64,000 nucleotides of DNA, from assembly GCF_007971025.1 (NCBI RefSeq), contig NZ_CP042436.1:372001-436000 (forward strand), in the 5' to 3' direction. A program made the position numbers and the translations under genes. Numbering within the stretch: position 1 is the first letter of the stretch; each line of letters opens with the position of its first letter. The notes below the pieces were generated by a model that saw only the letters and a list, made by a program, of their open reading frames with translations, made no database searches and had not been told where the DNA came from. The stretch comes from Mucilaginibacter ginsenosidivorans. Its GTDB lineage: Bacteria; Bacteroidota; Bacteroidia; Sphingobacteriales; Sphingobacteriaceae. Below are positions 39,756 through 54,209 of the stretch, piece by piece.

Positions 39756-40922
39756 TCAATACTGACCCTGGTCAGTTCCCTGGCCGGGAACGCTTGCTAC
39801 GCGGTAGCCTTTCCCGTCAGCATCTTTAAATTCTTCATAAAAAACATTATCAGGCGAAACATAATATTTCTTGTTGTTCAATGTCACCTTGCGGCAATCG
39901 GCCGGCAATTCATTTACCACGTCGCCAACTTTTACGGTAACCTTTACAGCTTCCGCTGCAGCTGCGCTGGCAGAATTATCGGTTGTAGCCGCATCATTGT
40001 CAACCATCGGGTCGTCGTTATCATTCATGGGCTGATAACTGTCGTCGGCCCCGGCATCGCCGGTGTTCAAAACCCCATCTTTTCCTACAACCACATACAC
40101 CGTTTTGCCGTTGCCGTCAACATTTTCCTGGTAGTAAACCCCATTCGATTCATAATACTGTACACCATCTATCACGATAGACTGTGCATTGGATGGCAGG
40201 TCAGGCACTGCTGCGCCCAGCGGAGGCGTGGTAACTTCGTAACCGTCGTTATAGGGCCTGTAGAAAACGCCGCCGTAATAGTAGTATGGTAAAGAGTTCC
40301 AATAGAATGGGTAGTAGTCATAAGGCAGGTATCCGAAATATAAACCCAGGTGAGGATATCCCCAGCCAAAACCGAACCTGAAACGGGAGCCATAACCATG
40401 GTAATAATTATAACCATACCCGCGGTAATAGCCGCCGCGGTAATAAGTGCGCCCGTTGTAAACATAGCGACCGCCCCTATAGCCGTACCGGGCATTAACA
40501 CCGGCACGCACGCCAACACCGCCACGATAAGCAGTTACGCCGCGATAGCCCGCATTGCCCCGGTAACCTATGGCGCCACGAGTGGCAAAACCACTTCTTA
40601 CAGCACCTGCCGACCCGCGATAACCTACAGCACCGCGGTTAAATGTTGCCCCGCGGCTAAAGCCTGCGGTATTGCCACGGTACGCACTGCTGCCACCGCC
40701 ATGAAAGCTCACGCTGCCACCGCCACCACGGTATGCACTACCGCCGCCTCCGCCGCCGTGGAAACCGCCGCCACCGCCGTGAAATCCGCCGCCACCTCCG
40801 CCGTGAGATCCACCGCCACCGCCACCGCTGTGGCCGCGCTGCGCATATACGTTACCTGTTAGTGCCATTGCCAGTATGCCCGTAAAGGCGAATGCCGACA
40901 TATATTTATTTAACCTTTTCAT
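39756..40922 (-). CDS. secreted glycine-rich DUF6515-type protein, copy 1
   Basis: A 388-residue exported protein (start at the ATG at 40922, MKRLNKYMSAFAFTGILAMALTGNVYAQ). After the signal peptide comes a Gly-rich low-complexity region with GG-SHGG-FHGG repeats (about 30-90) and Arg/Gly/Tyr-rich repeats (about 90-180), then Tyr-rich YLPYDYYPFYWNSLPYYYYGG, and a C-terminal domain with QSIVIDGVQYYESNGVYYQ repeated in form near the end (KVTLNNKKYYVSPDNVFYEEF). It shares this structure with the next gene. Role unknown, likely surface exposed. Confidence 0.85.
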   Translation of the reverse strand: MKRLNKYMSAFAFTGILAMALTGNVYAQRGHSGGGGGGSHGGGGGGFHGGGGGFHGGGGGGSAYRGGGGSVSFHGGGSSAYRGNTAGFSRGATFNRGAVGYRGSAGAVRSGFATRGAIGYRGNAGYRGVTAYRGGVGVRAGVNARYGYRGGRYVYNGRTYYRGGYYRGYGYNYYHGYGSRFRFGFGWGYPHLGLYFGYLPYDYYPFYWNSLPYYYYGGVFYRPYNDGYEVTTPPLGAAVPDLPSNAQSIVIDGVQYYESNGVYYQENVDGNGKTVYVVVGKDGVLNTGDAGADDSYQPMNDNDDPMVDNDAATTDNSASAAAAEAVKVTVKVGDVVNELPADCRKVTLNNKKYYVSPDNVFYEEFKDADGKGYRVASVPGQGTDQGQY

Positions 40923-40987
40923 ACTCCTCGTTAAATCGCTTTTATATATGACCAAACCGATCGCAAAAGGTTTAGTTTGATAAATAA

Positions 40988-41012
40988 AAAAGGGCCTCCT
41001 CAGCCCCTTTCT
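40988..41012 (-). terminator. terminator after DUF6515 gene 2
   Basis: AAAGGGGC ... GGCCC hairpin on the minus strand, followed by TTTTTTAT. About 12 bases after the stop at 41024. Confidence 0.55.
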
Positions 41013-41023
41013 GTATTTTTATT

Positions 41024-41830
41024 TCACTGCTGCTCATCCTGGTCGTTATCCGAAGGAACACTGACCACACGGTACGACTTGTAATTATGCGAGTCTTTAA
41101 ATTCTTCGTAATAAATGCCATCCGGCCCTACAAAATACTTTTTGCCATTAAGTTTCACCTTGCGCGACCCGTCGGGCAATTGGTTCACTATATCACCAAC
41201 CTGCGGCATTGCTGGTGCTTCATCTGCACTTTCGCCGTTGGTGTTCAGCACACCATCCTTACCGGCTACTACATACACAACCTTGCCCTGGTCGTTGGTG
41301 CTTTGCTGGTAGTAAACGCCGTTAAACTCAAAAAACTGCTGCCCGTCAATCACAATCGATTGGGCGCCTTTTGGTAATTCGGGCACTGCTGCGCCAAGCG
41401 GAGGGGTTGCAACTTCATAGCCCCCGTCGTCATCCGGACGATAGAAGGCCCCGCCATAATAATAGTACAGGTCGGACCCGAAATAGAACGGGTAATAACC
41501 GTAAGGCAGGTAACCAAAACGGAAACCGATAGTAGGGTAACCATAAAAATACCGGCCGCCATAATAACCGCCGCTATGGTAAACCCCGCCGCGGGCCGCT
41601 ACATTGGCTCCGGCACTCGCTCCCGGGCGATAACCTATACCGCTTCGTATACCCACACTCGAGCCGCCGCGGAAACCTCCGCCTCCGCCGATGCTTACGC
41701 CACCGCCTCCGGCGCGTACACCGCCGCCACCACCACCACGGCCGCGTTGTGCTTCAGCCGCAGGGACAAATAAGATAGAAAGTGCCCCGGCTAAAACTGC
41801 GCCGGCGGCATATTTATATAAGCTTTTCAT
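41024..41830 (-). CDS. secreted glycine-rich DUF6515-type protein, copy 2
   Basis: A 268-residue paralogue of copy 1 with the same order: signal peptide (ending SEAEAQ-like AAEAQ), Gly-rich repeats (GGGGGVRAGGGGVSIGGGGGFRGG), PYGYYPFYFGSDLYYYYGGAFYRP, and two YY...F/Y units, ATPPLGAAVPELPKGAQSIVIDGQQFFEFNGVYYQQ and KVKLNGKKYFVGPDGIYYEEF. The low-complexity region is shorter than in copy 1. They are separated by 100 bases and look like a duplication. Confidence 0.85.
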   Translation of the reverse strand: MKSLYKYAAGAVLAGALSILFVPAAEAQRGRGGGGGGVRAGGGGVSIGGGGGFRGGSSVGIRSGIGYRPGASAGANVAARGGVYHSGGYYGGRYFYGYPTIGFRFGYLPYGYYPFYFGSDLYYYYGGAFYRPDDDGGYEVATPPLGAAVPELPKGAQSIVIDGQQFFEFNGVYYQQSTNDQGKVVYVVAGKDGVLNTNGESADEAPAMPQVGDIVNQLPDGSRKVKLNGKKYFVGPDGIYYEEFKDSHNYKSYRVVSVPSDNDQDEQQ

Positions 41831-41991: not shown

Positions 41992-42021
41992 GTGAACGGA
42001 TACAATGATGCACCCGTTCAC
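41992..42021 (-). terminator. terminator of the TonB-receptor/DUF4249 operon
   Basis: GTGAACGG ... CCGTTCAC 8-base perfect arms with a 14-base loop, followed on the minus strand by TGTTTTTAT. About 33 bases after the stop of the last gene at 42054. Confidence 0.7.
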
Positions 42022-42053: not shown

Positions 42054-44426
42054 TTATTTCTTCACTTCAAAATTGATATACTTAACGCCGGGTGTACCGG
42101 TTGCGGTTATACCCTGTATGATGCCGATATACTTCCCTTCCTGGTCGGAGGTGTAGAAGGAGACCTGGTTCTTGCCATCGGGCCCGGCCTTTATCGAAGG
42201 CGACCAGTACAATACATTCCTGAAATCGGGCACGCGACTGGCTGCCTCGGTTTCGGTATCATAAGTTGGCGAATAGAATACCCTTTGCAACTGCAATCCT
42301 TCGTAATCGAGCACCACGGCATGCGGGTCTATCTCTACTCCGCCAAGGTCGCCTTTATACGTGGTATAACTCATTATGCCTTCGGCATCGGCGGGTCCCC
42401 AGAAATAGCGCTCGCGCATTACATCCAGTTTCCTGATCTTTAACGGATCGAGGGCTATAACCTTATCCATATCAAATATCGGGATACCGTCCAGCATTAC
42501 CAGCGGGTCGCCTTCAAGAAAACCTTTTTCGCTGATGATCTTGATATGGTATTTTTTATCCTGCCTAACCACATAAAGCTCCCTGATGTATTCCCTCAAA
42601 ACCTCTTCCATGGTTGTAAACCGGGTATAATCGTCCAGTTTGTACGATTTATAGGGTTTGCCGAAAAAGCCGTTACTGTCAACCGGCGGGTTGTAGTATT
42701 TCCGGATGTTATCGCCCGAATAGATATTGAGCACCTGCATGCCGAGGCTGCTGTTTTCCAAAGCCTGCTGCATATCCTTGCTAACATAAAAAGGCGGCAT
42801 TGCTGTTTTTGAATATTGCTCGGAGAACGGGCTGGCTATGTCAATACGAAAGGTACTGTCGCGCTGGGTGTTGGTTTGCACTACAATTTCGCCCGGGCCA
42901 TAAAAATCTTTGGTGTTGAACATCAACCGGCCCGCGGTATCGCTTTTGGCAGTGAACAACTGCACCCTTTTCCCCGGAACACCAAAGTATGCAACCACGT
43001 CGGCTGTTGGTTTGTTGGTTTCTGTATTCACCAGCTTACCGGTAACCAAATGGCCATTGTATTCGGGCAGGAAAGAGAACGAAGCGGGTTTGTTGCTCAA
43101 TACGTCGTTCCACTGAAACCTCCGCCAGCCCTGGGTCAGCATCAGGTTATCGGCTGCTTCGTTTGCTTCGGGGGTATTGGCGGTAACATAGTATCCCGGT
43201 GATTCAACACTCCCTTTAAGGTCCGACCCGAGGTATAAATAACTTACGATATCAGTAGCATCCTCTGCCTGGAAATTATCCAGCCGGTAAACCGACATAG
43301 ACAGATCGGCATTTTGCGCCGCCGAAACGGAAACATTTACTTTTTTGCGGTTGCCATATTGCCTGCTGTCGGGCGCTGCATCTATCGCCAGCGTTTGGGC
43401 AGGGCGTTTAAAATAAAGCCGTTCGCAAACCGGCTTCCGGTCGCCGGTGAAAACGGTTAAATGAGACACGCCATCGCCAAGCGAATTTTTATCTACAGTA
43501 AAAGTAGCCAGCCCGTTGTTTAACACAACACGCTTTATGCTTTCCAGCGATTGCCGGGTATGGGTAAACAGGTACACATCCGGTTCGGGGTTGCTTACGT
43601 TGGTGTTGACGGTTATGGTCAGCTGGCCGGTATTGTTATCTGCAAGTTGCATCACATAGCCCTGGCTGCTTGCCGCCGGCAGGTCTTTTGTCACCGGCGC
43701 AACGCCGCCCGCTTTTACGACAGCTTTGTAGGTATTACCTGCATCAGGTTTAAGCGTAAAGCTGCCCATGCCAAATTTCAGCGATCTGAAACGAGCCACG
43801 GTGTCGTTTTTTGAATCGATAACGGCTCCCGATACGTCAACTCCCCGGCCATCTTTTCCAACTGCTTTAAACGCTACTTTGCTGCTGAGCCCGCTTACCA
43901 GGTTACCGCCCTCGGGGAAAAACTGCACGTCAAAAGCCGCAGGGTTAACAGCCGTAATCGGGCCCGGTGCTATCTGCGGGTTTACGATCATCAGCGGTTT
44001 TTCAAAATAATAATCTGCGCTAAAGTTCTTCATCCAGTTGGTGTAGGCCCTTAGCTTGTAATTACCGTTGCTCAATGTCACAGGTATATAAACCGATCCG
44101 CTGCCTTTGCCATTGTGCAATGCAACTTTCGTTTGCATCACAGGCACCTGGTTATTATCCAGCACATCCACATAAGCCACTTTGCTTATATCCAACGGCT
44201 TGTGGTAGGTGCCGTCGACCACGTACAGTTTAAACCAGATGATCTCGCCCGTCAGGTACGAAGCCTTGTCCGTATGAGCAAATACCTTTTCGTGTAAGGC
44301 GGTTTGCCTGTAGCTGTCAAAACTTTTCTGGATATCGCCTACCTGGGCCGAGCAATTGAGCGATAGCAGGAACGCAAGGGCCGTACAGCCGATAAAGTTT
44401 TTAAATAGACCTGTGATTCGTTTCAT
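42054..44426 (-). CDS. secreted MG2-like protein with TonB-plug-like domain
   Basis: A 790-residue exported protein from the ATG at 44426 (MKRITGLFKNFIGCTALAFLLSLNCSAQ). The N-terminal part (about 30-150) looks like an MG2/macroglobulin-type beta domain (EKVFAHTDKASYLTGEIIWFKLYVVDG). The middle is beta-rich, and the C-terminal part (about 610-720) resembles a TonB-plug module (EGDPLVMLDGIPIFDMDKVIALDPLKIRKLDVMRERYFWGP), but no 22-strand barrel follows. Found downstream of DUF4249 arrays here. Likely an envelope partner of the receptor, not a channel. Last gene of the operon, ends at a terminator. Confidence 0.8.
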   Translation of the reverse strand: MKRITGLFKNFIGCTALAFLLSLNCSAQVGDIQKSFDSYRQTALHEKVFAHTDKASYLTGEIIWFKLYVVDGTYHKPLDISKVAYVDVLDNNQVPVMQTKVALHNGKGSGSVYIPVTLSNGNYKLRAYTNWMKNFSADYYFEKPLMIVNPQIAPGPITAVNPAAFDVQFFPEGGNLVSGLSSKVAFKAVGKDGRGVDVSGAVIDSKNDTVARFRSLKFGMGSFTLKPDAGNTYKAVVKAGGVAPVTKDLPAASSQGYVMQLADNNTGQLTITVNTNVSNPEPDVYLFTHTRQSLESIKRVVLNNGLATFTVDKNSLGDGVSHLTVFTGDRKPVCERLYFKRPAQTLAIDAAPDSRQYGNRKKVNVSVSAAQNADLSMSVYRLDNFQAEDATDIVSYLYLGSDLKGSVESPGYYVTANTPEANEAADNLMLTQGWRRFQWNDVLSNKPASFSFLPEYNGHLVTGKLVNTETNKPTADVVAYFGVPGKRVQLFTAKSDTAGRLMFNTKDFYGPGEIVVQTNTQRDSTFRIDIASPFSEQYSKTAMPPFYVSKDMQQALENSSLGMQVLNIYSGDNIRKYYNPPVDSNGFFGKPYKSYKLDDYTRFTTMEEVLREYIRELYVVRQDKKYHIKIISEKGFLEGDPLVMLDGIPIFDMDKVIALDPLKIRKLDVMRERYFWGPADAEGIMSYTTYKGDLGGVEIDPHAVVLDYEGLQLQRVFYSPTYDTETEAASRVPDFRNVLYWSPSIKAGPDGKNQVSFYTSDQEGKYIGIIQGITATGTPGVKYINFEVKK

Positions 44427-44477
44427 AGCTTTATTTATTGTAACAATGATCATTCATTTTTTTTTAATTCCCGTTAG

Positions 44478-45686
44478 CTAAAATCGTTGTGGTATCGGCC
44501 AAAACGCGGGCGCCAGGTTAGTGCCGTAAGGGGCTTTTGTCCGACAGTCTGCACAGTTCCTGGCTGCGTAACCATATCCCAGCAAAACGCCCATACGATT
44601 ATATATACCATTCAGCAAAACTGTATCGCCCGTGCCTGTTAGCTGTTTCAGCCGGTATTGAAAGCTGACCTGCGGTTCAATCAGGATGGCGCCGCCCTTA
44701 CACTCATCTGCAGTGGGTGGTGCTATATAATCCGGAACAAACAAGCCAGCGATAAAATTATTGACAAATACCCTTTTTGATTTTACACTCGATGCACTGA
44801 CAAAGCCGATAACCGGCTTGCCCGGTTCGCTTAGGCAATGAATATTACTGGGCAATTCGGATGGCTGTGCATCAAATATGCTCCCTATCTCTTCCGTGTT
44901 CTTTTTCAGGTTTTCCCAGTAACTATATCCTGCTTCGGTAAGCGCATACTGACGCAGCAATAAGCTGTAGCCATGCGATATTTTACCCGATCCCTGGCTG
45001 ATAAAGTCAAGCGGTTGGTGAAGGACCACATCCTGGGATAATTTTGTTGTAGTGGCGGTTAATATCTGTACCCCCGGATTCGAACGGTAGCATCCGTAAA
45101 TTTTATCCTCCGGGGCCACGCGTAATTCCGGGTAACCATCACCACCGATCTTAAAATAGGACCGGGCGAATGCATGATATCCCCATGTTTCATCAAAATC
45201 CCAACGGTAATATCTCGTTTTATTGGCGGCATCGTGCGAGTTAACATAAAACTGTACACCATCATTCTGCACCTCGTAACTTACGCTGTCAATATCCGGC
45301 GTCTCCTTTGCTTCAACAAAATCAGAAAGGTACTCTTCGTTGCTGGCGGTCTTTACCCGTAAGCGGTATTTGGCATTGGTACCCAGGTAAAGCGGTGGCG
45401 ATTGATACAAGCCGCCTCCGGCCTCTGTTAGCTGATATGAGCTATTGTTATCGCCTTCAATAGTCACTGTAGCGTTCAGCTCGCCCGACGGTTTGGCAAT
45501 ATCCGATAGTTTAACTGTCCTTGTCAATTTAATAAAGGTCGAGTCAGGCCCGGTATTGATCAGCCCTTCGATAACCAGGTAACTATCTTTAGAAACAATA
45601 GCCGGGCCTAAATAGGGCTTTTTACAGCCCCATGCCATAGCAATCGCTAAAATAAATACACTCGTTACCACTATTATACTTTTCAT
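44478..45686 (-). CDS. DUF4249 lipoprotein 5
   Basis: A 402-residue lipoprotein with signal peptide and C-K-K-P-Y-L-G-P after the lipid Cys. Same domain plan as the next four but most diverged (LKKNTEEIGSIFDAQPSELPSNIHCL, final CADCRTKAPYGTNLAPAFW). Starts immediately after the stop of the preceding gene (TAAATG). Part of the TonB-receptor array. Confidence 0.9.
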   Translation of the reverse strand: MKSIIVVTSVFILAIAMAWGCKKPYLGPAIVSKDSYLVIEGLINTGPDSTFIKLTRTVKLSDIAKPSGELNATVTIEGDNNSSYQLTEAGGGLYQSPPLYLGTNAKYRLRVKTASNEEYLSDFVEAKETPDIDSVSYEVQNDGVQFYVNSHDAANKTRYYRWDFDETWGYHAFARSYFKIGGDGYPELRVAPEDKIYGCYRSNPGVQILTATTTKLSQDVVLHQPLDFISQGSGKISHGYSLLLRQYALTEAGYSYWENLKKNTEEIGSIFDAQPSELPSNIHCLSEPGKPVIGFVSASSVKSKRVFVNNFIAGLFVPDYIAPPTADECKGGAILIEPQVSFQYRLKQLTGTGDTVLLNGIYNRMGVLLGYGYAARNCADCRTKAPYGTNLAPAFWPIPQRF

Positions 45687-46871
45687 TTATCGGTCTATCC
45701 AAAACGACGGTCTTTTATTGCTGCCCCTTAACGTACAATCGGCACAGGCACGATCTTCCACGCCTGTATACCCTAATATCACGCTTCCCGGCGGTTGTAT
45801 TACCCCGGTAACAAATATTTGCCCGGTATAGATAAAATCGCGTACAGGGGTAGTGGGCCGCCCGGCGCTGTCGTGGTCATGAAATAAGTAGCCCTTTTCG
45901 GTGCATTCACTTGCCGGAACGGGCCAGGTAGGCAACTCGCTGTTGTCAATATATATCCTTAACTGCGATGTCGATCCGGCACTGATATAGCCTATAACAG
46001 GTTCCGAAGGGTTTGTTATGCAATGTATATTACCTTGTAATTCGGATGGCTGCGCGTCAAATACACTACCCAACTGCTCGGTATTTTTTTTCAGGTTTTG
46101 CCAGTAATTAAAGCCTTCGGCGGTAAGTGCGTCCTGCTTTACCAATATGCTGTAACGGGTCCTCATTTTTTCGTCGCCGGTATTTACATAAGTGAGCTGG
46201 CTTTGCGATATCACGTCCTCTTTTAATTTGGCCGATGAACCCAGTATCACGTTAACCGAGCTGTCGTTTTTCCAGCATTGATATACATATTCATCCAGCG
46301 AGCGAAGGACAACGGTATCGAAAGGTACATGGACCAATTTAACCGTCGAAACGTAGTCAGCGTGAATGATGTAGGTTTCTATATAGCTCCATTTGTAATA
46401 GGTGGTTTTGTTTTCCGGGTCGTGCGTATTTACATAAAGCTTTACGCCTGTGTTATCCAAACGGTAAGTTATACTGTCAATAGGCGGCGAGTTTTTTACC
46501 GTTACAAAGTCCGAAGCATACTCCTTGCTATCCGGGGTCAGTACCCGCAGGCGGTATTTATTTGACGCACTTAAATTTAAAGCTACGGTTTTATAATACC
46601 CGTTACCATATGAAGGCAGACCATAGCTGCCGCCCGCGTCACTTTCTACCATCATGGTTGCATCGGTTACCGGTTCCGACCGCCTGGCCGAACCTAATGG
46701 AACAGTACGGCTTACCCGGATAATGGTCGAATCGGCGCCGGTATTGATGGTGCCTTCAACAACCAAAAACCCTGTAGCAGCGGTATCAGATGACGCAGCC
46801 GGGCCCAGGTAGGGTTTTTTACAACCGAACCAGGTTATTATTGTGAGTGATATGAAGATGACCTTTCTCAT
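45687..46871 (-). CDS. DUF4249 lipoprotein 4
   Basis: A 394-residue lipoprotein from the ATG at 46871 (MRKVIFISLTIITWFGCKKPYLGP). Cys at the lipid anchor, YQCWKN, NIHCIT, SECTEKG and ACADCTLRG. Starts by an ATGA overlap with the gene before it. Its first ~95 codons are almost identical to those of copy 3. Confidence 0.92.
   Translation of the reverse strand: MRKVIFISLTIITWFGCKKPYLGPAASSDTAATGFLVVEGTINTGADSTIIRVSRTVPLGSARRSEPVTDATMMVESDAGGSYGLPSYGNGYYKTVALNLSASNKYRLRVLTPDSKEYASDFVTVKNSPPIDSITYRLDNTGVKLYVNTHDPENKTTYYKWSYIETYIIHADYVSTVKLVHVPFDTVVLRSLDEYVYQCWKNDSSVNVILGSSAKLKEDVISQSQLTYVNTGDEKMRTRYSILVKQDALTAEGFNYWQNLKKNTEQLGSVFDAQPSELQGNIHCITNPSEPVIGYISAGSTSQLRIYIDNSELPTWPVPASECTEKGYLFHDHDSAGRPTTPVRDFIYTGQIFVTGVIQPPGSVILGYTGVEDRACADCTLRGSNKRPSFWIDR
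46588..46871. repeat. direct repeat A1 (5' end of DUF4249-4)
   Basis: These 284 bases are repeated at 47772-48055 with no gaps and 10 differences by eye (about 96%). Copies are 1184 bases apart. Confidence 0.85.
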
Positions 46872-48055
46872 TCGTCTATCCAAAAACTCGGCCTTACATT
46901 AGTTCCCCTTAAAGTGCAGTCAACGCATTCAGGTACCGCAGCGCCATACCCTAATATATGGTTTGATCCAGGTGGCTCTATGGTGAAAATTCCCATATGA
47001 GCACCTGTATAAATATTGTCCTTAACTTCATTAATGACTTGACTCCCCTGGGGCCTGACAAACAAGTCTGTATCCAGTTTACAGCCGGTATAGGGGCTGT
47101 TTGTTATCCATGCCGGTAAATCCCTATTGTTAATGTAGATACGCTGCTGTGCCGAAGCGCCGGCTGTAATATATCCAAGCACAGGCTCCGCAGGGTTTGT
47201 GAGGCAGTGAATGTTCCCGGGCAGCTCCGATGGCTGCGCATCGAAAATGCTGCCTAATTGCTCCGTGTTTTTTTTCAGCTGTTGATAGTAATTAAATGCT
47301 TCCGGCGTCAACGCATATTGCTTTACCAAAATGCTATACCGGTCTTGCAGTTCTTCGGAACTCGACGGAATGAAGGCGATGGGATTTTGCGCTATCACGT
47401 CCTGTGTCAGTTTCGCCGATGAGTTGAGTAAAATAGTAGTAGCCTTGCTGCCACGGTAGCAAACATATATCTGGTCAGGCAGTATGCGGGGAAGCAAAGT
47501 ATCCTGCGGGCTGGTTACTAAACGGAGGAACGAATAAAAAGCGCTATGAAACTGGTAGGTGCTTTCATACTCCCAGCGATAATATTTGGTATTGTTAGAC
47601 GGGTCGTGCGTGTCAGCATATATCTCCACACCGTTATTCAGGATGCGGTAATATACGCTATCAATTGGCGGTGAGTTTTTAACTACAACAAAGTCAGACT
47701 GATAAGCTGTCCCATTCACGGTAGTGATCCTTAACCGGTATTTATTCAATGCACTTAAGTTCAGCGGCCCCGTTTTATAATACCCGTTACCATATGAAGG
47801 CAGACCATAGGTGCCACCCGCGTCGCTTTCTACCATCACGGTTGCATCGGTTACCGGTTCCGATCGCCTGGCCGAACCTAATGGAACAGTACGGCTTACC
47901 CGGATAATGGTCGAATCGGCGCCGGTGTTGATGGTACCTTCAACAACCAAAAACCCTGTCGCAGCGGTACCAGATGACGCAGCCGGGCCCAGGTAAGGTT
48001 TTTTACAACCGAACCAGGTTATTATTGTGAGTGATATGAAGATGACCTTTCTCAT
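46868..48055 (-). CDS. DUF4249 lipoprotein 3 (mosaic)
   Basis: A 395-residue lipoprotein from the ATG at 48055, the point of the ATGA overlap with the previous gene; an in-frame start 19 codons upstream is inside that gene. Its first ~95 residues are nearly the same as copy 4, while the rest (from NSPPIDSVYYRILNNGVEIYADTHDP) matches copy 2. Cys residues are those of the family. Confidence 0.92.
   Translation of the reverse strand: MRKVIFISLTIITWFGCKKPYLGPAASSGTAATGFLVVEGTINTGADSTIIRVSRTVPLGSARRSEPVTDATVMVESDAGGTYGLPSYGNGYYKTGPLNLSALNKYRLRITTVNGTAYQSDFVVVKNSPPIDSVYYRILNNGVEIYADTHDPSNNTKYYRWEYESTYQFHSAFYSFLRLVTSPQDTLLPRILPDQIYVCYRGSKATTILLNSSAKLTQDVIAQNPIAFIPSSSEELQDRYSILVKQYALTPEAFNYYQQLKKNTEQLGSIFDAQPSELPGNIHCLTNPAEPVLGYITAGASAQQRIYINNRDLPAWITNSPYTGCKLDTDLFVRPQGSQVINEVKDNIYTGAHMGIFTIEPPGSNHILGYGAAVPECVDCTLRGTNVRPSFWIDE
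47772..48055. repeat. direct repeat A2 (5' end of DUF4249-3)
   Basis: Partner of 46588-46871. Beyond its inner edge the similarity to copy 4 drops sharply and the gene resembles copy 2 instead. Confidence 0.85.
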
Positions 48056-49230
48056 TCGTCTACCCAAAACGCCGGCTTTATATTTGTGCCTCTCAGGGTA
48101 CAATCTACACATCCGGGTACCGAAGCTGTATAACCGTCTGGCTTGGGGGCACCCTGCGGCTGTATAACAAAAATCGGTATATGTACTCCTGTATAGATAT
48201 ATTCCTGCACTTCGTTAACAACGGTGCTACCCTGCGGCCGGGCAAACAGATCCGTATCCAGTTTGCAGCCGCTATAAGGGCTGTCCGTAAGCCATGCCGG
48301 CAGATCCCTGTTCCTGATATACATGCGCAACTGGGTCGGAGCGCCTGCCGTAATGTACCCAAGCACTGGTTCCGACGGGTTTGTCAGGCAGTGAATATTC
48401 CCGGGCAATTCGGATGGCTGCGCATCGAAAATACTACCCAGTTGCTCACTGTTTTTCTTCAATTGCTGGAAATAGCTAAATGCACCGGGAGTTAAGGCGT
48501 ATTGTTTTACCAGGATACTATAGCGGCTCTCTAACTCTTCGGCATTCGATGCGATAAAGGCAATAGGGTTTTGTGTGATCACATCCTGCGATAGTTTAGC
48601 GGATGAATTGATCAGGATCGTACTCGACTTATTGCCGCGGTAGCATACGTATATATGCTCTGGTATAGTACGGCCCAATACGGTGTCTTGCGGGGTGGTC
48701 ACCAACTTGAGGAACGAGTTGAAGGCACTGTGATACTGGTAAGTGCTTTCATACTCCCAGCGGTAATATTTGGTACTGTTGGTCGGGTCGTGCGTATCGG
48801 CGTATATCTCCACGCCGTTATTCAGGATGCGGTAATAAACACTGTCAATAGGCGGCGAATTCCTGGCTTCTATCAGGTCCGACTCGTAAGTTTTTCCCGT
48901 CGCCGTCGTTATCCTCAGGCGGTATTTGTTGGATGAACTTAAACCTAAGGGCCCTGCTTTATAATACCCGTTGCCTGCATCGGGTAAGCCGTAAGTGGCG
49001 CCCGCATCGCTTTCTATTATCACCATGGCATTCAGTTCAGGCGTCGATCGTTGCGAAGAAGAAACCTTCACCGTACGGCTCAGCCTGATTATAGTCGAAT
49101 CATTGCCGGTGTTGATAATGCCTTCCACAACCAGGTAATTACTATCCGTGGTTATAGCAACCGGCTGGTAAGGCTTTTTGCAACCCCACCACACCAGTAA
49201 AATAGTTAGTGTATAAATTATTTTCTTCAT
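48052..49230 (-). CDS. DUF4249 lipoprotein 2
   Basis: A 392-residue lipoprotein from the ATG at 49230 (MKKIIYTLTILLVWWGCKKPYQP), where it shares one base with the stop of copy 1 (TAATG). An ATG 9 bases upstream is possible. Same five Cys positions (anchor Cys, YVCYRG, NIHCL, SGCKL, CVDCTLRG). Confidence 0.92.
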   Translation of the reverse strand: MKKIIYTLTILLVWWGCKKPYQPVAITTDSNYLVVEGIINTGNDSTIIRLSRTVKVSSSQRSTPELNAMVIIESDAGATYGLPDAGNGYYKAGPLGLSSSNKYRLRITTATGKTYESDLIEARNSPPIDSVYYRILNNGVEIYADTHDPTNSTKYYRWEYESTYQYHSAFNSFLKLVTTPQDTVLGRTIPEHIYVCYRGNKSSTILINSSAKLSQDVITQNPIAFIASNAEELESRYSILVKQYALTPGAFSYFQQLKKNSEQLGSIFDAQPSELPGNIHCLTNPSEPVLGYITAGAPTQLRMYIRNRDLPAWLTDSPYSGCKLDTDLFARPQGSTVVNEVQEYIYTGVHIPIFVIQPQGAPKPDGYTASVPGCVDCTLRGTNIKPAFWVDE

Positions 49231-50414
49231 TATTTCCAAAAATCAGGCTTTTGTGTTTTTCCGTTCAGGTGATACCGGCAATTCACGCAATCGTAATAGC
49301 CAACGGGCACACTGTAGGTGCTGTCCTTCGCTATCGGGTCATATCCGGTCATTATCGGGCCCAGCGGTATAAAAACGCTGTCTGCCAGTTCAGCCGGTAC
49401 ATTTTCCTTCTTTTTCCAGCCCAAACCGGTTGGTTTGCATTGCGGAGGGTCGAAAGGCCAGGCCGGCAATTCGGTACGGTCAATAAATATCCTTTTTTTC
49501 GAAATGGTGCCTGCGCTTATGTACCCGATAACGGGTTCTTTAGGGTCGGATGCGCAATGCAGGTTACCGACTATTCCCGAAGGCTGTGCATCGAAGATGG
49601 TGCCCAACTGCTCCGTATTTTTTTTCAGCAACGTCCAAAACTCGTAGGCTTTTTGAGTAAGCGCATATTGCCGTACGATTATACTATACCGGTAATAGAT
49701 CTTTTCCGAGCTTGATGATATTTGCGTTATAGGATTATCGTTTATCACATCCTCGCGAAGCTTTGCCGACGAATTCAAAATAACCGTAGTTGAATTGAGG
49801 CTTACATAACAGGTATGTATCAATTCAGACGGTTTTCGGCTGATGACACGATTTGCAAAATAAAAGGGGTACGGGATATATTTATAAAGCGAAACCAGCG
49901 GGGTAAGAAATAAATAGGTCTCTGTATAATCCCACCGGTAAAAGTGTGTTTTGTTTGCCGGGTCGTGCGCGTTGGTAAAAAAACTAAGCCCGTCGGCGGT
50001 TACATCATATCTGAGCGTATCTATCGGCGGTGTCACCATAACTGGTTCAAAATCGGACTCATACGTGCGGCCGTCAGCTGTCCTGATCAGCAATTTATAC
50101 TTGCGGTTGTTATCCAGGTTCAAAGGCGCCGATGCGTATCTGCCGCTGTCTGTTTGGGTAAGCGAATAGCTTACACCCTGGTCGCTTTGTACAGTTACTG
50201 TCGCGCCCCATTCCGGATGGTGAGTATTCTTTTGGCCTATATTTACTGACCGGGTTAGTGTTATCACTGTTGAATCTTGCCCGGCCGCTATTATACCCTC
50301 AACCACCAGGTAATTATTTGGCGCCGTAACGGCAGGAGGGCTGTAAGGCTTTTTGCAGGCAGCCAACATCATTGCCGAAACAGTCATCACGTATATGTAG
50401 CCCCGGGGTTCCAT
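49230..50414 (-). CDS. DUF4249 lipoprotein 1
   Basis: A 394-residue lipoprotein (MEPRGYIYVMTVSAMMLAAC, lipobox LAAC) with CKKPYSPP after the anchor. Cys in IHTCYVS, NLHCAS, PPQCKPTG and DCVNCRYHL. First lipoprotein after the TonB receptor; its start is 2 bases after the receptor stop. DUF4249 proteins accompany TonB receptors in Bacteroidota, probably as surface partners, but the substrate is unknown. Confidence 0.92.
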   Translation of the reverse strand: MEPRGYIYVMTVSAMMLAACKKPYSPPAVTAPNNYLVVEGIIAAGQDSTVITLTRSVNIGQKNTHHPEWGATVTVQSDQGVSYSLTQTDSGRYASAPLNLDNNRKYKLLIRTADGRTYESDFEPVMVTPPIDTLRYDVTADGLSFFTNAHDPANKTHFYRWDYTETYLFLTPLVSLYKYIPYPFYFANRVISRKPSELIHTCYVSLNSTTVILNSSAKLREDVINDNPITQISSSSEKIYYRYSIIVRQYALTQKAYEFWTLLKKNTEQLGTIFDAQPSGIVGNLHCASDPKEPVIGYISAGTISKKRIFIDRTELPAWPFDPPQCKPTGLGWKKKENVPAELADSVFIPLGPIMTGYDPIAKDSTYSVPVGYYDCVNCRYHLNGKTQKPDFWK

Positions 50415-50416
50415 TT

Positions 50417-53179
50417 TCAGAAACGGATGTTATAGTTGATAAATGGTATAGGCCTGGCGAATATGGACAACTGGTAACCGTTTATTGCACCTCCCTGTTC
50501 CTGGAAGAAGGTGGAATAGGCGTTTGCACGACCGGTAAGGTTGTAAACCCCGATAGACCAGGAATTATGTGTTAGCTGGTGTACCTTGTGGTTGCCTTCG
50601 ATGTTCATGGAAAGGTCGGTCCTGAAGTAATCCGGTATCCGGTAAGCGTTCCTGTCTGAATAATATACCCTTTCCGCTCCGCCATATTCATACTTTGCAA
50701 TAGGCAGCGTAATAGGGCGCCCGGTGCTGTAGGTAAGATCCACCGATACGCTGAACCTGTGGCTAAACCGGTAGTTGCCATTAAAGTTGAAATTATGCGG
50801 CTTATCGTAATTTGCGGGGTACCAGTTGCCGTTGTTGATCAGTTCGCCGGCTGTCGGGTCATCCTGTTTCAGGAAAGTGCGCGAGTAGGTATAGCTAACC
50901 CAACCGTTTGATTTACCCGCCGTTTTGCGAACCAGGAACTCGATCCCGTAAGCCTTGCCCTTAGTATTCACCACGTCCCGTTCGATGTGCTGGTTAAGCA
51001 AAAGCGTGGCGCCGCTTTTATAGTCCAGGTAATCGTCTATCTTTTTATAGTAAACCTCAACCGAGGTCTCAATCGTGTTCGATTTCGCATTGCGGTATAA
51101 ACCAAGTGATACCTGCTGCCCAAACTGCGGCTTAACATTAGGATCGCTCAGTTTATAGGTGTCGGTAGGTGAGATAGCTGTGGTGTTTGACAACAGGTGA
51201 ATGTATTGCCTTAACGTATTGTAAGCTGCCTTTACCGAGATATCGTCCGTTAAATTGTAACGTGCCGATACTCTTATTTCGGGCCCTTTATAAGTTTTCA
51301 TCACCTTGTTTTTACCATAAGTGACACTGTCGAGCACGTTCACGCTTTCTTTTGGCAGGTTAGGGGCATACCTGTCCACGGTTGCCGGGCCAAGCGACGC
51401 ATATAGCGAATACCTGATACCCGCGCTGATGGAAAGATCCTGTGTTATATCATATTTATCGCCGAGGTAAAGAGCGCTTTCCAACGCCTGCTCCTGCGGA
51501 ACCACCTGCGAAATAACCAGCGATTTTTCGCCGTTAGCTTCCTCATCACCGGGGTTCAGCTTATAATATATACCACTCAAACCAAAATCAACCGTATGCT
51601 TGGGGTTAGGGTAATAAGTGAAGTCGGTTTTGAAATTGCTTTGATTAACGCCGAACTTAAGCTTGTAGGCGTCCACCGGGTTTGCGCTGCTTGTGATGCT
51701 GTAATCGTAATGATCGACGCCGGCCATTATCACACTGTAGAGTTTGTTGCTGAAGTTGTGCTTCCATTTGATGTTGGCGTTTTTGTTGCTGTACGCATAG
51801 GCCGTATCGCTGTTCAGCCTGAACTTGTCCTGGCTCCAGTAACCCATCAGGTAAATGGTGTTTTTATCGTTTATCTGGTGGCTTATCCCCAGGTTAAGGT
51901 CGTAGAAGGAGGCGGAGCTATGTTTGTAGGCCTCGGGCAGTAAATGAAGCAGCCAGTCGGAATAGGTAGTACGGCCACCGAAAATAAAGGAAGTTTTATC
52001 CTTGATTATCGGGCCCTCCACGGCGAGCCGGCTTGTAAGCAGACCGATACCTGCCGAACCGGCAAACTTCTTTTTATTGCCTTCCCTGTCGGTAACATCC
52101 AGAACTGACGACAGGCGGCCTCCGTATTTCTCGGGGATGGTACTTTTATACAGCTCGATGTTTTTTACGATGTCGGGGTCAAAGGCCGAGAAAAAGCCGA
52201 AAAAGTGCGACGGATTATAAATGGTGGCATCATTGAAAAGGATCAGGTTCTGATCGGCGGCGCCGCCGCGTACGTTGAAACCTGTGGTCGCTTCGCCGAC
52301 CGATTGTACGCCCGGCAAAGTGAGTACCACCCGCAACACGTCAGCCTCGCCAAAGGCCGTCGGAATTTGCTTGATGCTGCGGATGTCGAGCTTGTTGACA
52401 CCCATTTGGGTGCTTTTCACATTAGCTACCTTTTCTGCCGATATCTGCACCTCTTTCAGCGAGGTAACCTGTTCCTGCATTTCTATGTTCAGTTTGCCGT
52501 CCGAATAAAGGATGATCCTGCGCCGGGTGTCTTTCATACCCAGCCCTTTGACGATCAGGGTTATCCTTCCGCGCGGCATGGTAAGCGAATAATACCCAAA
52601 CTGGTCAGTAGCGGTACCTACCCTTGTATCCGGGTTGTAAATGCTGGCCCCGATGATGGCCTCGCCGGTTTTTATATTGCGCACGTAACCTGCCAGTGTC
52701 GAATTGCCAGGTTTAATGGTGTTGGTGCGTATGCCGATGGTGTATAACTTGTTTTCCGTAGTTGCTTCCGGTACTTTCGTCTGCTTTTCTTCGGTGTAAT
52801 CGGTTACGGCAGCTGTTGCCGGGGCAGTAGCCTGCTCCGTATTGAAGAAACCCGGTGCCAGCGTCGCACTCACCTGGCGGCCTTTGGTCAGAAATACAAA
52901 CTGGTCCCTGATGGTATAATGAAAATCTGTTTTTTCAAAAGCCATGTTCAGCACGGCCTCAAGCGTTTTGCCGGTTGCTTCAACTGTAACCTTCAGGCTG
53001 TCAAACTGCGGCGGGTTGTAATAGAAATGATAGCCGGTCTTCGACTCCAGGTCCTTTACCACCTGCTCTATATTCGCCTGCTGAAAGTTGACACTGATCG
53101 TTTTTTTATTTGCATCCTGTGCCGTGGCCAGTTTGAAAATAAGTGCAAAGCACAAGCTTAAGAAGTAAACTTTTTTCAT
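50417..53179 (-). CDS. TonB-dependent receptor with STN and carboxypeptidase-like domains
   Basis: A 920-residue outer membrane protein: signal peptide to about 20, STN domain (about 25-100, ISVNFQQANIEQVVKDLESKTGYHFYY), a carboxypeptidase-regulatory-like domain (about 158-235), plug (about 270-370, DVLRVVLTLPGVQSVGEATTGFNVRGGAADQNLILFND), and a barrel ending YNIRF. The STN domain normally relays signal to a FecR/sigma pair, but none is adjacent. Starts the DUF4249 array. Confidence 0.95.
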   Translation of the reverse strand: MKKVYFLSLCFALIFKLATAQDANKKTISVNFQQANIEQVVKDLESKTGYHFYYNPPQFDSLKVTVEATGKTLEAVLNMAFEKTDFHYTIRDQFVFLTKGRQVSATLAPGFFNTEQATAPATAAVTDYTEEKQTKVPEATTENKLYTIGIRTNTIKPGNSTLAGYVRNIKTGEAIIGASIYNPDTRVGTATDQFGYYSLTMPRGRITLIVKGLGMKDTRRRIILYSDGKLNIEMQEQVTSLKEVQISAEKVANVKSTQMGVNKLDIRSIKQIPTAFGEADVLRVVLTLPGVQSVGEATTGFNVRGGAADQNLILFNDATIYNPSHFFGFFSAFDPDIVKNIELYKSTIPEKYGGRLSSVLDVTDREGNKKKFAGSAGIGLLTSRLAVEGPIIKDKTSFIFGGRTTYSDWLLHLLPEAYKHSSASFYDLNLGISHQINDKNTIYLMGYWSQDKFRLNSDTAYAYSNKNANIKWKHNFSNKLYSVIMAGVDHYDYSITSSANPVDAYKLKFGVNQSNFKTDFTYYPNPKHTVDFGLSGIYYKLNPGDEEANGEKSLVISQVVPQEQALESALYLGDKYDITQDLSISAGIRYSLYASLGPATVDRYAPNLPKESVNVLDSVTYGKNKVMKTYKGPEIRVSARYNLTDDISVKAAYNTLRQYIHLLSNTTAISPTDTYKLSDPNVKPQFGQQVSLGLYRNAKSNTIETSVEVYYKKIDDYLDYKSGATLLLNQHIERDVVNTKGKAYGIEFLVRKTAGKSNGWVSYTYSRTFLKQDDPTAGELINNGNWYPANYDKPHNFNFNGNYRFSHRFSVSVDLTYSTGRPITLPIAKYEYGGAERVYYSDRNAYRIPDYFRTDLSMNIEGNHKVHQLTHNSWSIGVYNLTGRANAYSTFFQEQGGAINGYQLSIFARPIPFINYNIRF

Positions 53180-53233
53180 CAGAATGATTATTCGTTCAAT
53201 AATTTGAGTTTGGTGATGTCTTTTGGGTAGCGG

Positions 53234-53989
53234 TTATAACTTATCATAGTAGGAAGCAACTGTTGCCATGACACCTTCGGGGTCGCGGCGGAACTTCAGG
53301 TTGTTGTCCTTCATATATTTTTGTATCAGGGCTTTCTTGTCTTTCATCACGTCCAGGAATGAGCCCTGGCCGCTTACTTTGTAATAGGTGTTCCCTTTTC
53401 GCATGTAGTACGAGTGGTTTTCGAGGAAGTAGGTTTCGAGTGTTGCACTGATATTGGTAGAGTTTTGGATCGTCTTTACCCTTTTAGCCAGCACTTCCAC
53501 TTTATCGCCATTGTACAACTGGTCGTAAAACCCCGTTGTTATGCCCGATTTGTCGTTAACCAGTGAATCGGCATTTACACGGACAAAGCGATGCCCCGAG
53601 AAGCTGAAATCGTGAACACGGTCTTCCAGCAAGGTGTACGCGGTAAAATGGTTATATAACAATACCACCAGTTTGTCCTTGTAAATGTCGTACATCATTG
53701 GCACGCCTTTGTATAGCAAGCCGTCGTATGTTACCTCGCCGGTGGCCCAGGTCTCGGCATCCAGCGGAAAGAGTGCATTACCCTTTATGCTCCTGTCGTA
53801 AGGAAAGTACTCCATACCATTATATAAGCGCGACTGCTGACCAATTGCGAGGTAAAAGTTGGAGACGAGCTGATCTTTTGCGCTTTTAAGATTTACACTA
53901 TCACTCAGGGGGCCCTGGCCAAATAATTTACCGGTCAGGAAAACACAGGCGAAGAGTAAAAACGTTTGTTTGGAAAAGGTTTTTTTCAT
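53234..53989 (-). CDS. secreted protein of unknown function, first gene of the receptor operon
   Basis: A 251-residue exported protein (MKKTFSKQTFLLFACVFLTGKLFGQ), no recognised domain. It is rich in Tyr, Lys and Asp, with KGVPMMYDIYKDKLVVLLYNHFTAYTLL and SYYMRKGNTYYKVSG. It lies 54 bases before the TonB receptor and after the probable promoter, so it is likely part of the same system. Confidence 0.85.
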   Translation of the reverse strand: MKKTFSKQTFLLFACVFLTGKLFGQGPLSDSVNLKSAKDQLVSNFYLAIGQQSRLYNGMEYFPYDRSIKGNALFPLDAETWATGEVTYDGLLYKGVPMMYDIYKDKLVVLLYNHFTAYTLLEDRVHDFSFSGHRFVRVNADSLVNDKSGITTGFYDQLYNGDKVEVLAKRVKTIQNSTNISATLETYFLENHSYYMRKGNTYYKVSGQGSFLDVMKDKKALIQKYMKDNNLKFRRDPEGVMATVASYYDKL

Positions 53990-54094: not shown

Positions 54095-54124
54095 GAAATA
54101 TACTAAAAAATTAGTTAATCCAAA
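54095..54124 (-). promoter_or_regulatory. promoter of the receptor/DUF4249 operon
   Basis: On the minus strand TTTG (54121-54124) is followed 18 bases later by TATATTTC (54095-54102), one mismatch from TAnnTTTG. It lies about 105 bases before the start at 53989. Confidence 0.55.
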
Positions 54125-54162
54125 TTTTATCGAAAAAAAATTACATGCAGGGCAACAAAAAA

Positions 54163-54182
54163 GCCCCGGAATATTCCGGGGC
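54163..54182 (-). terminator. infB terminator
   Basis: GCCCCGGAATATTCCGGGGC, a perfect 20-base palindrome, with TTTTTTG next on the minus strand. About 28 bases after the infB stop. It separates infB from the receptor operon. Confidence 0.85.
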
Positions 54183-54209
54183 TTTTCATATTATAAGTGA
54201 AATTTTACT

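Follow-up and report, generated by a model that had tools for sequence, protein, structure and literature searches.

A lineage-specific expansion of DUF4249 lipoproteins behind one TonB-dependent receptor in Mucilaginibacter

Introduction

What use would one TonB-dependent receptor have for five lipoproteins? The question is raised by a 64,000-nt stretch of the genome of Mucilaginibacter ginsenosidivorans, a soil-type member of the Bacteroidota (hereafter, the window), in which a receptor gene is followed by five tandem genes encoding DUF4249 proteins. A sequence-only reading of this locus had described an operon-like unit with tight junctions, held one or two lipoproteins per receptor to be the usual number, and proposed that the five paralogs reflect stepwise substrate capture, several alternative ligands or a multi-lipoprotein complex.

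Receptors that are paired with lipoproteins have been described in several systems. Four-component utilisomes are built on SusCD, with several lipoproteins per system (PMC7618045), and small ligands are handled by a receptor together with a surface lipoprotein in BtuB-BtuG (PMC10404256) and in XusA-XusB (PMC13142918); different siderophores are bound by XusB homologs (PMC13142918). In Bacteroides thetaiotaomicron, the BT2172-BT2173 pair places a receptor beside a DUF4249 protein; the published genetics, as summarized in PMC11003636, gave similar mutant consequences for the two, and joint action and adjacency across dozens of genera are reported. DUF4249 is widespread in Bacteroidota, yet a single paper names it in the open-access literature that we searched, where a query for PF14054 returned nothing relevant.

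Results

Eight genes, all on the minus strand, run from 53989 to 42054 in the window, and every open reading frame lies at the position first noted. The first gene encodes X251 (53234..53989), a secreted protein whose Sec-type signal peptide was recognized by eye and which matches no Pfam family. It is followed by an STN-type TonB-dependent receptor (TBDR) of 920 aa (50417..53179); by five intact DUF4249 lipoproteins, L1 (49230..50414), L2 (48052..49230, its start taken from the junction), L3 (46868..48055), L4 (45687..46871) and L5 (44478..45686); and by an MG2/plug-like secreted protein (42054..44453, starting at 44453 or, more likely, at 44426). When lipobox-proximal starts are used, a 2-base gap separates TBDR from L1, L1 and L2 overlap by 1 base, L2/L3 and L3/L4 are joined by ATGA overlaps, and L4 abuts L5 as TAA-ATG. 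In all eight frames, their strand and their junctions, the first description proved exact. The terminator that it had placed at the end of the array was also confirmed, as a strong 13-bp stem with a T run (41992..42021, minus strand; -20.8 kcal/mol, z -8.0) that begins ~32 bases past the last stop codon.

At the other boundary, a perfect palindrome with a T run (54157..54186, minus strand) forms a strong intrinsic terminator for infB and divides this gene from the operon. A candidate Bacteroidota-type promoter lies upstream of X251 (54095..54123, minus strand; TTG-N18-TATATTTC, a match to the consensus only, with one mismatch to TAnnTTTG). The sequence-only reading had named separate promoters for the lipoproteins as grounds for abandoning the unit; our search for the Bacteroidota-type consensus (TTG-N17-23-TAnnTTTG) found none inside the operon, and the single near-match was the one at 54123, 5' of X251. 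The other ground that it had named, an assembly artifact, is ruled out for the five copies, since the host genome was assembled into a single closed contig of 5.35 Mb, the copies are 39-73% identical to one another, and arrays of five are also present at two related loci (L010 and L011). Eight DUF4249 genes are found in this genome in total, five of them within the array. Just downstream of the operon, 39756-41830 (minus strand) encodes two adjoining Gly-rich secreted paralogs, one of which (41024-41830) matches DUF6515; Gly-rich relatives of these proteins are found near the operon in eight related loci also.

All five array proteins match DUF4249 (PF14054) far above the Pfam cut-off (164.6-184.5 bits versus 28.5; E 4e-48 to 4e-54, with 4.6e-48 for L1 and 9.3e-51 for L2), and none has a SusD-family Pfam match at E up to 1. 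They are ~395 aa long, with an extra Cys-containing C-terminal part; L1 has a pI of 8.3. Each carries a signal peptide with a lipobox Cys before KKPY, which marks the proteins as lipoproteins, and this Cys is invariant in 86 sequences; C17, C196, C322, C374 and C377 (L2 numbering) are invariant in the same sequences, and a cysteine at 281 is also conserved. All five have CKK at the lipid cysteine, as do most SusD-like lipoproteins encoded in this genome, and CKKPY has none of the acidic residues found in published export signals (C-X-K-(D/E)2-X, SDDDD, SDDFE). An AlphaFold2 model of L2 was confident (pLDDT 93) and, in a fold search, resembled tandem Ig/FnIII-like domains such as those of cytokine receptors (Z up to 7.7); the modeled arrangement is a common one and says nothing about DUF4249 function. 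Sequence searches for solved structural relatives found none for DUF4249 and none for the receptor. Elsewhere in the genome, a receptor that lacks the STN region adjoins a DUF4249 protein of the short type (269 aa).

The receptor has STN, CarboxypepD_reg-like and Plug domains at its N-terminus. The STN match exceeds the Pfam cut-off (31.5 bits versus 28.4), as expected of a FecA-type transducer domain, and the Plug match of the window protein, also above cut-off, identifies it as a TonB-dependent receptor. Among 26 receptor family members scanned, 19 had the STN domain and only 10 matched the beta-barrel model. The SusC/RagA model (TIGR04056) gave 42.7 bits, against a cut-off of 368.25. FecA-type transducer receptors combine an STN domain with FecR/FecI. 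The present receptor is like them in its N-terminal STN domain and unlike them in the absence of adjacent FecR/FecI genes; the genome encodes six FecR-type proteins, all of them elsewhere and none near the operon. The STN domain itself suggests a regulatory role.

X251 showed no Pfam match in the window copy, and none that was consistent across 62 relatives, yet its linkage to the receptor is strict and its predicted fold is confident (pLDDT 89); a fold search against the PDB reached a Z of 3.5 at best, nothing convincing. In Mucilaginibacter pedocola, two tandem X251 homologs lie upstream of one receptor (L029:8115-8786), so X251 too is duplicated in at least one species. The MG2/plug-like protein of the window matches MG2 below the Pfam cut-off (25.6 bits versus 32.8; E 1.6e-5), and MG2 was matched in 35/35 family members scanned (E<=0.1). 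When alpha-2-macroglobulin domains were sought, the window protein matched MG2 only; the bait-region domain was present in one of the 35 family members and the thioester domain in none. Profile-profile comparison of the MG2 protein with the receptor plug gave no match, although Pfam Plug was found in 8 of the 35. Compared by sequence with solved structures, the MG2 part had a weak match to complement C3 (E 0.0035). A search of the open-access literature for MG2 with TonB returned nothing relevant.

Comparison of this neighborhood across genomes, a check that the sequence-only reading had suggested, showed a conserved core order with a variable number of lipoproteins. A receptor scan yielded 80 named loci, mostly from Mucilaginibacter, with others from Niastella, Pinibacter, Pedobacter, Daejeonella, Pontibacter, Spirosoma and further groups; their receptors are 56-82% identical to that of the window. 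Because these loci are the closest receptor relatives, the counts describe this receptor's neighborhood and not all Bacteroidota. Gene order at each locus was derived with hidden Markov models built on the window proteins. X251 was directly upstream of the receptor in 73/73 testable loci, a DUF4249 gene came directly after the receptor on the same strand in 69 of 71 (window included), and of 71 loci that could be tested for an MG2 gene downstream of the array, 70 had one (69 by script, plus L042, which the script missed). X251-TBDR-DUF4249-MG2 is the conserved core of the operon. Neither this four-gene core nor the L2-L4 triplet with its recombinant L3 (see below) was part of the first description.

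The partners of the receptor have diverged to different extents: at single-copy loci with 75-80% receptor identity, mean identity over ten pairs was 53% for DUF4249, 58% for MG2 and 43% for X251. In three loci (L039, L042 and L089) the order differs: X251, receptor and MG2 come first, and DUF4249 lies after them on the other strand. One of these (L089:3672-10707) gives the window's own genome a second system, with a receptor 71% identical, an X251-like gene and just one DUF4249 gene. A long-type DUF4249 gene that stands alone (L090:6447-7730) has no receptor of the operon's family beside it and is upstream of a cluster that looks like MoxR-type ATPase genes. Neighboring genes gave no indication of a substrate; the recurrent ones, named by eye, looked like infB/nusA/rimP, response regulators, ECF sigma factors and Gly-rich proteins, and near the operon we found no catabolic or glycan enzymes that would point to one.

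Among the 74 loci that hold both the receptor and the MG2 gene (window included), one DUF4249 gene was present in 50, two in 17, three in 2, four in 1, five in 3 and six in 1; one or two is indeed usual, as first supposed, and five is unusual. Eighteen loci, including the window, adjoin infB on its downstream side and therefore share one chromosomal site, at which eight have one copy, four have two, and the others have 3, 4, 5, 5, 5 and 6. Arrays of at least three copies fall into two separate clades of the receptor tree, with single-copy L013 nested beside five-copy L010 and L011, which makes both gain and loss likely. Parsimony on this tree counts at least five changes between fewer than three copies and three or more, and the infB site has undergone at least two separate expansions and one apparent contraction. 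Other genomes of the genus contain further arrays of two to four copies, and array members match the profile over its full length, except at contig ends. Judged from these comparisons, the window array is a lineage-specific lipoprotein expansion within a conserved operon, and not a new kind of system.

A FastTree phylogeny of the lipoproteins grouped L2, L3 and L4 as an in-genome triplet and placed the two copies of older type elsewhere, L1 with two copies from L009 and L5 with L032 across long branches. The grouping of L1 with the L009 copies implies that two lipoprotein types predate the split between the window and L009. L3 is a mosaic, with a 5' end like L4 and the rest like L2. DNA identity between L3 and L4 is 94-99% (~97%) over the first ~85 codons versus 67% overall, and the remainder of L3 is closest to L2. 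The longest identical L3/L4 run beat 1000/1000 shuffles, and 200/200 in a second run. At such DNA identity, synonymous sites in the tract (approximately 47800..48055, minus strand; L4 counterpart ~46616-46871) must be nearly identical too, against a mere 52% agreement at third positions across the full gene, a contrast that is hard to explain without recent gene conversion. The run shared by L2 and L3 was reached by 23 of 1000 shuffles and is only suggestive, because the shuffle disregards normal rate variation along the gene. Weaker, similar signs of conversion were seen in L020, L025, L036 and L012.

Recent paralogs had a dN/dS of 0.09-0.25 where synonymous change was unsaturated; this purifying selection, together with the full length of the copies, indicates that they are kept as functional proteins. 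In a rough comparison of non-independent pairs, made without significance tests, paralogs and orthologs of equal overall identity varied in the same segments, most of all in L2 residues 321-360, between conserved Cys 322 and 374. Along the protein, array paralogs diverge much like single-copy orthologs, so that divergence in ligands has left no clear footprint. The main exception is L2 residues 141-160, ~1.5x more variable among array paralogs (again from non-independent pairs, with no significance test); this is also the most conserved segment among single-copy orthologs.

Discussion

We looked to known systems for the role of the DUF4249 protein. The operon is like BT2172-BT2173 in that a TonB-dependent receptor gene adjoins a DUF4249 gene, a same-strand pairing in 69/71 loci here. 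By analogy with this pair and with SusCD, BtuBG and XusAB, the receptor most likely has its surface partner in the DUF4249 protein. One lipoprotein is described for BT2172-BT2173 (PMC11003636), versus five here, and the features on our side of the comparison are the STN receptor, ~395 aa lipoproteins with a Cys-containing C-terminal part, and X251 and MG2 in the unit. SusCD and utilisomes likewise co-encode a TonB-dependent barrel and a surface lipoprotein partner (PMC7618045), the surface location being assigned here by analogy; unlike them, this operon has no SusD match, a receptor far under the SusC/RagA cut-off and no glycan enzymes, and its extra lipoproteins are paralogs of one another. 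It differs from BtuBG and XusAB in having a lipoprotein of the DUF4249 family, with predicted tandem Ig/FnIII-like domains, in five copies. The BAM subunits BamG and BamH, a FadL-like barrel and a carbohydrate-binding-fold protein (PMC12611786), were set aside as not being this operon's system.

In the mechanism that we propose, the TonB receptor would be the energized channel of a conserved outer-membrane uptake operon, the DUF4249 lipoprotein would serve as a surface lid or capture protein in the manner of SusD, BtuG and XusB, and X251 and the MG2/plug-like protein would be periplasmic or secreted helpers. The usual unit would contain a single lipoprotein, duplicated in tandem in some Mucilaginibacter lineages, to five here. 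Unequal crossing-over and gene conversion between neighboring copies could alter their number and mix their parts, and the copies may take turns on one receptor, perhaps each with a different ligand. On balance, and with moderate confidence, we believe that the five are alternative lids or capture proteins whose effect is to widen or shift the range of ligands; a wider capture range is probably what the multiplied lipoprotein confers. Among the initial proposals, several alternative ligands would fit best. It is possible, but doubtful, that the array goes further and acts as a recombination-driven diversification cassette, which expands, contracts, swaps domains by gene conversion and repeatedly refits a near-invariant TonB receptor with new surface capture proteins; if true, this would be modular retuning of an outer-membrane transporter with the channel unchanged.

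A different arrangement would be a stoichiometric machine that seats several of the lipoproteins, or all five, on the receptor at once and hands substrate along them, as with the accessory lipoproteins of a utilisome. Genes joined so tightly suggest balanced synthesis, there are four-component utilisomes that have SusCD as their base, and two divergent types have been retained since before the window/L009 split. However, 50/74 loci have one lipoprotein, and so does the close relative L013; moreover, these copies are paralogs of one fold, whereas utilisomes are composed of different proteins. A single lipoprotein is the norm and generally enough; the additional copies are therefore not a structural necessity, and an obligate five-part complex is unlikely. 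Given that this operon carries anywhere from one to six copies of the gene at a single syntenic site, stepwise capture and a multi-lipoprotein complex, both among the initial proposals, are not supported as requirements, and we consider the machine itself unlikely.

Selection might instead have acted mainly on the exposed face of the receptor complex, copies and mosaics altering it against phages, predators or toxins while transport is unchanged. Such an account would accommodate the much faster evolution of DUF4249 (~53% identity) and X251 (~43%) where the receptor is 76% identical, the gene conversion between copies, and the position of L2 residues 321-360 as the most variable segment. We think it improbable, as there is no sign of silent cassettes, all copies being intact in one transcription-unit-like array, and dN/dS is well under 1. 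Nor do we give much credence to dosage alone, with functionally equivalent copies that simply supply more lipoprotein: copy number is labile, and paralogs and orthologs diverge in the same regions, but dosage would favor near-identical copies, and identity among these is 39-73%, with at least two old types retained. There is very little chance that the system serves mainly for sensing or for biogenesis/secretion, with STN as signaling module and lipoproteins sensing surface ligands; STN in the window receptor and in 19/26 family members scanned, and the absence of nearby catabolic genes, would suit it, but the six FecR-type proteins are all encoded away from the operon, although a partner could act in trans.

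The reading of the five copies as alternative lids is one that the family itself may help to examine. A syntenic series of one to six lipoproteins behind a conserved receptor is a natural experiment on whether one TonB receptor can use alternative lids, a question beyond the reach of single-lid systems such as SusCD, BtuBG and XusAB. The core supplies two uncharacterized partners, X251 and MG2/plug, to study alongside, and the series, together with the recombinant L3, makes this operon a useful test case.
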